Origin: Nitrosomonas sp.
GTDB taxonomy: Bacteria > Pseudomonadota > Gammaproteobacteria > Burkholderiales > Nitrosomonadaceae
Length of the DNA: 64,000 nucleotides
Reading direction: 5' to 3'
Assembly: GCF_019752415.1 (NCBI RefSeq)
Contig: NZ_JAIEME010000011.1
Span: 1 to 64,000, forward strand
Position numbers and translations under genes: made by a program
Shown: positions 2,200-18,080 of the stretch, piece after piece
Layout: each line of letters starts with the position of its first letter
Position numbering within the stretch: the stretch's first letter is position 1
The notes under the pieces: generated by a model
What the model was told of the DNA's origin: nothing
Seen by the model: the letters and a program-made list of their open reading frames with translations, nothing else
Database searches by the model: none

Positions 2200-3032
2200 T
2201 GGCGCTAGTAAAATTAAAACCAACTTCACCAGGACGAAGATCTGTAGTTAGACTGATTAATAAGGATTTGCATAAAGGTGATCCACATAGAAGTTTGATT
2301 GAAAAACAATCAAAAACTGCTGGCCGTAATCATCATGGTCGAATTACGACAAGACATCGTGGTGGTGGTCATAAGCAGCATTATAGATTGATTGATTTTA
2401 AGCGTGATAAAGATGACATCCCAGCTGTCGTAGAGCGTATTGAGTACGATCCAAATCGAACAGCAAACATTGCGTTAATTTGTTATATGGATGGTGAGAG
2501 AAGATACATAATTGCACCCAAAGGGTTGAGTGTTGGTGCAAGAATTAGCAGTGGTAGAAATGCGCAGATTAAAGTAGGAGAAACTTTACCATTACGTAAT
2601 ATTCCTATGGGAACAGTAATACACTGCGTTGAATTATTACCAGGTAAAGGTGCTCAGCTGGCACGTTCTGCAGGAACCTCGGTTCAACTACAAGCGCGCG
2701 AGGGGAATTATGCGCAAATTAAACTTCGCTCAGGTGAGATGCGAAAGGTTCATATTGATTGTCGTGCAACAATTGGAGAAGTTGGCAATTCCGAGCATAA
2801 CTTGAGATCTATTGGTAAAGCAGGTGCTGTACGTTGGAGAGGAATTCGTCCGACAGTTCGTGGAGTTGCCATGAATCCAATTGATCATCCGCATGGTGGA
2901 GGTGAGGGTAGAACATCAGCCGGACGCCATCCGGTAAGTCCATGGGGAACTCCAGCGAAAGGCTATAGAACTAGAAATAATAAAAGAACCGATGTGATGA
3001 TAATCCGTCATCGTTATTCAAAGAAAGGATGA
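2199..3032 (+). CDS. rplB: 50S ribosomal protein L2
   Basis: [17 protein letters not shown]... [15 protein letters not shown]; start trimmed to the second Met. Confidence 0.98.
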
Positions 3033-3039
3033 TTGTTAA

Positions 3040-3321
3040 ATGGCACGTTCAGTAAAAAAAGGCCCGTTTGTAGATACTCATTTATCGGCAAAAATAGAAA
3101 AAGCACGAGGTACAAATGATAAAAGGCCTATAAAAACATGGTCTAGAAGATCGACGATTCTGCCTGATTTTATTGGATTGACTGTTGCTGTTCATAATGG
3201 TAAGCAACATATACCAATTTACATAACAGAGAATATGGTTGGTCATAAATTTGGTGAATTTTCACTGACTCGTACTTTTAAAGGCCATGCTGGCGACAAA
3301 AAAGCTGTTACGAAGAGATAG
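3040..3321 (+). CDS. rpsS: 30S ribosomal protein S19
   Basis: [15 protein letters not shown]...; operon order. Confidence 0.98.
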
Positions 3322-3329
3322 GAACAATC

Positions 3330-3677
3330 ATGGAAACAACTGCAATTTTACGTGGCGTCCGCTTATCAGCACAAAAAGGACGTCTAGTGGCTGACCAAAT
3401 CAGAGGACTTTCTGTAGATAAAGCATTAAATATCTTGAAGTTTAGTCCAAAGAAAGGGGCTGAAATATTACGAAAGCTTTTAGAGTCCGCCATTGCTAAT
3501 GCAGAGCACAATGACGGAGCTGATATTGATGAACTTAAAATTTCGACAATATATATTGATCGCGGAACATCAATGAAAAGAACTAGTGCGCGCGCGAAAG
3601 GGCGCGGTAATAGAATAGTAAAACCTACATGCCATATATTGCTTACAGTGGGCGATAGTGATGGCCAGACTAAATAA
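3330..3677 (+). CDS. rplV: 50S ribosomal protein L22
   Basis: [20 protein letters not shown]; operon order. Confidence 0.97.
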
Positions 3678-3691
3678 AGGCATTGATTGAT

Positions 3692-4546
3692 ATGGGTCAG
3701 AAAATACATCCAACCGGATTTCGTCTATCAGTTCAAAAAAATTGGTTATCTAGATGGTATGCAAATAGTAATAATTTTGCCACTATGCTAAATGAAGATA
3801 TTAAAGTTCGCGAATTTCTTCATGATAGATTAAAGAATGCTTCGGTTGGTAGAGTCTTAATTGAAAGGCCCTCTAAGAATGCAAGAATTACAATTTTTAG
3901 TTCACGCCCCGGTGTAGTGATTGGAAAAAAAGGTGAAGACATAGAAGTGTTGCGAAATGAACTTCAAAAGCGAATGGGGGTACCTGTTCATGTGAATATT
4001 GAAGAGATAAGAAAACCTGAACTAGATGCGCAATTAATAGCTGATAATATAGCTCAACAATTGGAAAAACGAATAATGTTTCGTAGAGCAATGAAGCGAG
4101 CGATGCAGAATGCTATGCGACTAGGTGCACAAGGGATTAAAATAATGAGTTCTGGAAGATTAAATGGAATAGAAATCGCCCGTACAGAGTGGTATCGCGA
4201 AGGAAGAGTACCCCTTCATACGCTAAGAGCTGATTTGGATTATGGAACATCAGAAGCTAAGACAACATATGGAATTATTGGTATAAAAGTATGGATCTTT
4301 AAAGGCGAAGTACTTGGAAAGGGCGAGCAGGCTAGTTTTACGACACCTAACTCGAATGTAGAAAATGAAAGAAAGAAGCCTTCTAAGAAATCATCTGCTG
4401 TTTTTACAAAATCCGCGAGTATTAAAGGTGTAAAAGAAACCATAGGATATTCTGAAACGGAATTAATAAGTACAACGAATACTGAAAATTCAGCAAACAC
4501 AGAAGTTAATATGATTTCTGGAGAGAAAAATGCTTCAGCCAGCTAG
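3692..4546 (+). CDS. rpsC: 30S ribosomal protein S3 with extended C-terminal tail
   Basis: [18 protein letters not shown]..., KH-domain [12 protein letters not shown]; start at internal MGQK. Confidence 0.97.
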
Positions 4547-16219: not shown

Positions 16220-16846
16220 TTGTTGTCTTATGAAAAGTTTATGTCTCGATTTAACAATATAACCTTCTACACATCAGTCAATGATGTTCGAGATTTACCA
16301 CTACATACAGGTATTGAGATTGCTTTTGCCGGGCGATCTAATGCTGGAAAATCTAGCGCTATTAATACACTTACAAATCGAAGTCGTTTGGCTTTTGTTA
16401 GTAAAACACCTGGGCGCACACAATTAATTAATTATTTTCAATTAAATTCAGACCAATTCTTTGTCGATTTACCTGGCTATGGATATGCGAAGGTTCCAGA
16501 TTCCATCCGACAACACTGGCAAAGTTTATTGAGTCGCTATTTACAAACACGTGAGCCACTCAAAGGCTTAGTTTTAATAATGGATATTCGCCATCCTTTA
16601 AAACCGCTTGATATCGAAATGCTTGATTGGTTTGCACCTACTGGGAAAGCAATCCATATTTTACTCACAAAATCTGATAAATTGAGCACGCAGAGGGCAA
16701 ATATTACCTTAAAGGACGTAACTCTATATTTAAAGAGTGCTTACCCGCAATGCAGTGTTCAGTTATTTTCCAGCTTATCAGCCACAGGCGTTGAAGATGC
16801 AACTACTGTCATTAGTGATTGGTTAGAAACTAAAATTAGTAGCTAA
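16220..16846 (+). CDS. engB: Ribosome biogenesis GTPase EngB/YihA
   Basis: [39 protein letters not shown]; start may be the internal Met (MSRFNNI). Confidence 0.95.
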
Positions 16847-16887: not shown

Positions 16888-16925
16888 AAAAAAAGCCCCC
16901 GGTTAAAGGGGAGAAAAACCGGGGG
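16888..16925 (-). terminator. Intrinsic terminator on the minus strand
   Basis: Perfect 9-bp stem CCCCCGGTT (16896-16904) / AACCGGGGG (16917-16925), 12-nt loop, followed on the minus strand by UUUUUUU (complement of A7 at 16888-16894). Confidence 0.85.
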
Positions 16926-16985
16926 AACCGCCTTAATATCACTTAAGACTCTGCCTCAGAGAGGAAAGACAGGGGGACACAATTA
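16888..16985 (-). ncRNA. Candidate minus-strand small RNA ending at the terminator, between engB and hemB
   Basis: Minus strand reads ...GUGUCCCCCUGUCUUUCCUCUCUGAGGCAGAGUCUUAAGUGAUAUUAAGGCGGUUCCCCCGG...; two small hairpins (CUCUG/CAGAG, CUUAA/UUAAG) precede the terminator; possible promoter (TTGCAC ... TATTTT) upstream; no ORF. 5' end approximate. Confidence 0.6.
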
Positions 16986-17048
16986 AAATATCCATGTATA
17001 AGAGTGTGCAATAACTGAGTTAGTTCCCGAACAGTATTGTTTTTTTAA

Positions 17049-18080
<1,032 letters not shown>

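Follow-up and report, generated by a model that had tools for sequence, protein, structure and literature searches.

An anti-hemB small RNA of Nitrosomonas with a predicted sigma-E-type promoter and a likely kinship to the Pseudomonas stress RNA ErsA

The window, a 64,000-nt stretch of the genome of Nitrosomonas sp., contains a small RNA (sRNA) gene on the minus strand between engB and hemB. We hold with good confidence that it encodes an independently transcribed, trans-acting sRNA of the anti-hemB family, which would very probably be induced by RpoE and would repress mRNAs by loop pairing with their Shine-Dalgarno sequences, without antisense action on hemB. The features seen in the sequence that form the basis of this reading are the family match, a promoter and a terminator of its own, a four-hairpin fold, a nearly invariant exposed loop, the sigma-E type of the promoter and the locus (Table 1). 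Counting against it are a Burkholderia relative whose level did not change in any tabulated condition, the lack of the sigma-E-type site at a few loci, the failure to find a conserved target and the degenerate state of the window copy. The sRNA family was already known, whereas the corrected structure and promoter and the link to the sigma-E response and ErsA are new. A sigma-E-type promoter at an ErsA-like locus would give this widely conserved betaproteobacterial RNA a testable role in envelope stress.

Table 1. Features of the engB-hemB region (window coordinates)
Feature	Position	Strand	Basis or remark
engB, GTPase	16220..16846	+	Pfam MMR_HSR1; neighbour convergent with the sRNA
sRNA gene, about 105 nt	16888..16993	-	RF02837 match 16888-16974, fold, conservation; start at about 16993 predicted from the -10 position
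Terminator tail, C and seven U	16888..16895	-	Read from the sequence
Intrinsic terminator hairpin, 9 bp	16896..16925	-	Loop with conserved UCCCC
Hairpin 2, core UCUUAA-GUGAUA-UUAAGG	16930..16949	-	Covariation: 2-13 both-side changes at most pairs
Hairpin 1, CUGUCUU-UCCUCUCU-GAGGCAG	16951..16972	-	Stem varies with compensation; loop CCUCCCU nearly invariant
Exposed anti-Shine-Dalgarno loop UCCUCUCU	16958..16965	-	Family consensus UCCUCCCU
5' hairpin	16975..16993	-	Outside the Rfam model; in 75 of 79 distinct relatives
Sigma-E (RpoE/ECF)-type promoter GGAACTA-N17-TCTTA, predicted	16999..17027	-	-35 at 17027-17021, -10 at 17003-16999; exact match in the window
hemB, porphobilinogen synthase	17073..18080	+	Pfam ALAD, 462 bits; neighbour divergent from the sRNA

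An Rfam scan at the gathering threshold gave no match anywhere in the window, and an E-value search was needed. The Rfam comparison of this region, which a reading of the sequence alone had proposed, then returned the anti-hemB model RF02837 over its full length (1-81 of 81) with 47.4 bits and an E-value of 4.8e-10, which is below the curated gathering score of 49.5 bits. The shortfall of 2 bits most likely reflects the divergence of one copy and not a different family, because the sRNA is syntenic with above-cut-off copies in relatives. In the window copy, the terminator loop is longer and the stems are weaker, and a single C has become U in the otherwise nearly invariant loop. RF02837 has a single match in this genome. 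Of 125 genomes of the same bacterial family, 113 carry it (89 with a match above the cut-off), and so do 305 of 399 genomes of the order. The window sRNA lies opposite to hemB and adjoins it, the location characteristic of anti-hemB. Judged by its sequence, it is a member of the catalogued anti-hemB family and a real small regulatory RNA gene. The sequence-only reading had correctly seen an sRNA, but its family went unrecognised. The candidate named there, the two-hairpin 'Betaproteobacteria toxic small RNA' family (RF02278), reached only 19.7 bits (E 0.14) against a cut-off of 50; it had no match elsewhere in the genome, but the controls gave none either.

A member of the family (also Burkholderia RNA 7) that has been seen experimentally is ncS04 of B. 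cenocepacia J2315. It is 105 nt long, with its start mapped by dRNA-seq and its 3' end by RACE, is reported to bind Hfq and showed no significant change across the tabulated conditions (PMC5688073). In B. pseudomallei, anti-hemB is listed as a trans-acting RNA (PMC3521395). The window sRNA resembles the family in its full-length match, its place on the hemB side and its three 3' hairpins with the loop, and its predicted length agrees with that of ncS04. It differs in having UCCUCUCU in place of UCCUCCCU and a terminator loop that is 7 nt longer.

Between engB and hemB, the minus strand has a dense series of hairpins that ends in an intrinsic terminator. From the predicted start, 107 nt of this strand fold into four hairpins with a minimum free energy of -36.8 kcal/mol (z -4.1), and 0 of 200 shuffles were as good. 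The sequence-only reading had described three hairpins and a start at 16985; it missed the 5' hairpin (16993-16975), and transcription probably begins about 8 nt further upstream, near 16993. For the structure comparison, 160 loci were fetched and collapsed to 79 distinct sequences, 75 of which have the four-hairpin fold. Both-side changes occur at 10 of the 12 predicted pairs of hairpin 2 and the terminator. The hairpin CUUAA-GUGAUA-UUAAG recognised earlier is our hairpin 2. The combination of MAFFT and RNAalifold overlooked stem 1 because the loop length shifts; this stem was therefore scored from loop anchors. It turned out to be replaced wholesale around a fixed loop, with compensation on the opposite side (CCCGC/GCGGG, CUGUC/GACAG, UCGCC/GGCGA, UACCU/AGGUG and CAUGC/GCAUG).

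In all 79 sequences, at least 5 of the 6 bases in the CUCCCU core of the hairpin 1 loop are unpaired, with a mean unpaired probability of 0.98, which agrees with the earlier proposal of exposed C/U-rich anti-Shine-Dalgarno stretches. The letters of the alternative stem CUCUG-AGG-CAGAG proposed there are present, but this stem is 5.2 kcal/mol worse than the minimum-free-energy stem CUGUCUU/GAGGCAG and is possible in only 10 of the 79 relatives. The window copy alone among the aligned relatives has UCCUCUCU for the nearly invariant UCCUCCCU, and its C-to-U change has a matching counterpart, G to A, in the 3' strand of stem 1. These paired changes, which would preserve CUCUG-AGG-CAGAG, look like a product of chance.

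As had been noted, the terminator has a perfect 9-bp stem (CCCCCGGUU/AACCGGGGG) followed by UUUUUUU, but the two are not directly joined: a single C stands between them. Its place directly after engB might indicate that the whole element is just the engB terminator or a piece of its 3'-UTR and that there is no separate RNA gene, an explanation to which we give almost no credence. The U-run is restricted to the minus strand, and the plus strand has no T-run behind the stem; the element also has a promoter of its own and covarying upstream hairpins, and relatives have been seen experimentally (PMC5688073). No open reading frame of at least 60 aa on the minus strand explains the element, in keeping with the earlier observation. 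The earlier proposal of a minus-strand sRNA with transcription of its own, about 100 nt in length and probably trans-acting, is supported, and the structure is conserved in the bacterial family and far beyond it.

The predicted promoter of the window sRNA agrees with the known consensus of RpoE (sigma-E). Across the 160 loci, the pattern GAAC-N16-20-TCNNA is present upstream of the RF02837 model in 128, mostly 20-24 nt before it. By comparison, its background frequency is 1.7% in shuffled sequence and 1.1% elsewhere in these loci. A looser pattern is found in 142 of the 160, a few spurious sites included. The genome encodes RpoE and the anti-sigma factor RseA in the order rpoE-rseA-rseB, the last gene of which we take by eye for rseB, judging by where it lies and how its sequence reads. 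As rpoE is self-regulated, a site of its own type is expected before it. Among 30 rpoE genes from the order that we inspected, most are indeed preceded by a GAACT-N-GTCNNT motif (GTCTTT-like) with the same -35 element and spacing as in the sRNA promoter. The sigma factor SigE of Bordetella recognises sigma-E promoters of the E. coli type (PMC3490749). By these comparisons, the sRNA promoter is of the sigma-E (RpoE) type.

The sequence-only reading had placed the promoter at TTGCAC-TATTTT, which is not conserved; the conserved one is GGAACTA-N17-TCTTA. A constitutive sRNA transcribed by sigma-70 from TTGCAC-15-TATTTT, with the GGAACTT motif being incidental, is unlikely in our view. The two weak hexamers do exist in the window, and the Burkholderia member is expressed without clear regulation (PMC5688073). 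However, their spacing is 15 nt, TTGCAC lies within the sigma-E spacer and TATTTT falls in the RNA's 5' hairpin, whereas the position of the sigma-E-type motif is conserved in the 128 loci. At a few anti-hemB loci from large genomes (L032 and L033), a sigma-E-type site is absent from the expected place, unlike in the window. These loci have a TATGATA/TATCATA-like -10 element at a similar distance instead, and in some lineages, such as these, the promoter and its regulator have probably been swapped. Within the literature accessible to us, which included few subscription papers, we found no work that joins anti-hemB with sigma-E or ErsA.

The family name hints at yet another function, namely that the sRNA is a cis-antisense regulator of hemB or of an engB-hemB read-through mRNA. 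The gene order is compatible with it, as hemB and the sRNA are divergent in 147 of the 160 loci (and engB and the sRNA convergent in 143), and the sRNA would be antisense to a shared mRNA if hemB were transcribed from engB. We nevertheless regard this function as very unlikely. Transcription of the sRNA runs away from hemB. The sRNA is on the engB strand in 7 loci, and adjacent hemB is absent in 13, one of which is truncated; in the former and in the 12 untruncated loci of the latter the structure persists, and the promoter is kept in most. Elsewhere in the Gammaproteobacteria, polA is often found as the neighbour. Antisense action on hemB and pairing with its ribosome-binding site were rejected, as the start regions of hemB gave no complementarity signal: a Shine-Dalgarno sequence is present in only 10 of the 83, and the regions are not complementary to the sRNA loop (mean z +0.2). 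The name anti-hemB is misleading and describes a location only.

The loci in which the sRNA is inverted onto the engB strand (L054, L126, L137, L139, L145, L148 and L151) have no adjacent hemB, and most of them retain the sigma-E-type promoter. Some genomes of the window's bacterial family carry two or three tandem sRNA copies beside engB/hemB, for example at L062 (G018:C126, 34737, 35006 and 35272) and in the L004 region (G094:C17, 8675 and 8799).

In the mechanism that we favour, envelope stress would cause RpoE to transcribe the sRNA, the C/U-rich hairpin loops of which would pair with the Shine-Dalgarno regions of a set of mRNAs and block their translation, similar to ErsA and sX13, and the sRNA would probably use Hfq in this organism. 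In order to search for targets, we looked for the exact loop complement in the arrangement TCAGGGAGGA-N3-9-ATG in 84 genomes of the genus. It occurs at 45 sites, whereas the reversed pattern gave only a handful, but ordinary Shine-Dalgarno sequences are included in this count. The recurrent genes behind it, which we named by eye from their translations and take to be ftsA and genes of a TIR-like and a carotenoid-hydratase-like protein, each recur in a few genomes only. A conserved target was not found by this search for exact loop complements before ATG in the 84 genomes, and none of the recurrent genes encodes an outer-membrane protein. In L228, L230, L233, L237 and L238, all from members of the genus, an FtsA-like protein starts after TCAGGGAGGA-N7-ATG, which is perfectly complementary to the consensus loop. 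This site may be where the sRNA acts, or a Shine-Dalgarno sequence that fits the loop by chance.

The family extends beyond the order. Of 281 genomes sampled across the whole class, 129 have an RF02837 match at E<=0.001, 16 of them over the cut-off, but 3 of 14 control genomes matched as well and weak matches may be due to chance. For 20 of the best matches outside the order, the surrounding sequence was fetched. The element is convergent with engB in 11 of these 20 loci, a sigma-E-type promoter is present in most, and in 8 of the 20 what we take to be the end of polA, from its C-terminal letters QVHDELVFE...NWDEAH, is found upstream of the element. The polA-sRNA-engB arrangement is that of the Spot 42 locus.

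A similar arrangement is seen in P. aeruginosa PA7 (L326), where engB (3001-3594, plus strand) is followed by ErsA (3614-3729, minus strand; RF01719, 137.8 bits). The distance from the engB match to this ErsA is 20 nt, the two are on opposite strands, and ErsA is preceded by GAACTTT-N-TCAGA. ErsA depends on sigma-22 (AlgU, an RpoE homologue) and acts with Hfq on algC, with oprD as a further target (PMC8395346, PMC7565897); engB has also been given as the neighbour of SPA0122/ErsA (PMC3349714). The window sRNA and ErsA are alike in their convergence with engB, the promoter (GAACTTT-N-TCAGA in ErsA), the C-rich loops and a terminator with a CCCC loop. They differ in that ErsA is a separate Rfam family: RF02837 gave no match on ErsA at E<=1, and RF01719 (Pseudomon-1/ErsA) none on the window sRNA at E<=5. 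Gammaproteobacterial elements do match RF01719 weakly, with 37.1 bits (E 0.0013) in L260 and 34.8 bits in L251. A covariance model built solely from gammaproteobacterial elements detects the window sRNA with 37.3 bits (E 3e-6). It also matches 8 of 10 engB loci from Pseudomonadaceae, at a place shortly after the engB 3' end, with E-values of 0.0015-0.0076. Six of the Pseudomonadaceae loci were scanned with Rfam too, and in these its matches coincide with ErsA. It gave no match in 12 rpoE control loci. The ErsA matches are weak and cover chiefly the C-rich 3' half; common descent is therefore likely, but not proven. The promoter class and the locus suggest that the window sRNA is a relative of ErsA.

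The L260 element also matches the sX13 model RF02232 (48.3 bits, E 5e-6), and the coordinates overlap the matches of the other families. The sX13 RNA is always downstream of polA, and its apical C-rich loops repress mRNAs with G-rich ribosome-binding sites (PMC3771888). Like the elements described here, it is a polA-locus sRNA, and its model and RF02837 match common elements; unlike them, it was published as Hfq-independent and confined to Xanthomonadaceae (PMC3771888). Our results bear on the question, raised in the same study, of whether the polA loci of other bacteria encode sX13-like sRNAs (PMC3771888). With Spot 42 the window sRNA shares the locus, but no sequence match was seen. Spot 42 (spf) of E. 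coli is located at the polA-engB locus. Its locus context is conserved (PMC3349714), and it is described as cAMP-CRP-repressed and acting on carbon metabolism (cited in PMC3771888). The window sRNA differs in sequence and locus from RybB and MicA and is likened to them by function only. These two E. coli sRNAs are sigma-E-dependent and repress translation.

Taken together, these likenesses incline us to the view that anti-hemB, ErsA and probably sX13 are lineages of one ancient sRNA of the engB/polA (Spot 42) locus under RpoE-type control, spread over Beta- and Gammaproteobacteria. If this is true, anti-hemB would be a betaproteobacterial envelope-stress sRNA that has hemB in the place of polA as its neighbour.

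Several of the loci have additional peculiarities. Four tandem engB-adjacent copies are present in L260 (1501-2239), most with a sigma-E-type promoter of their own, and single copies among them match the anti-hemB, sX13 and ErsA models. L245, L246 and L248 have short two-hairpin versions of about 65 nt with a CCCCUCCCU loop, single or in tandem, and with a promoter-like GAAACTTT-N-GGTCTTA; the one in L245 weakly matches RF02278 (31 bits). In L252, a c-di-GMP-I riboswitch (2037-2121, 77.9 bits) is found near the engB-linked sRNA.
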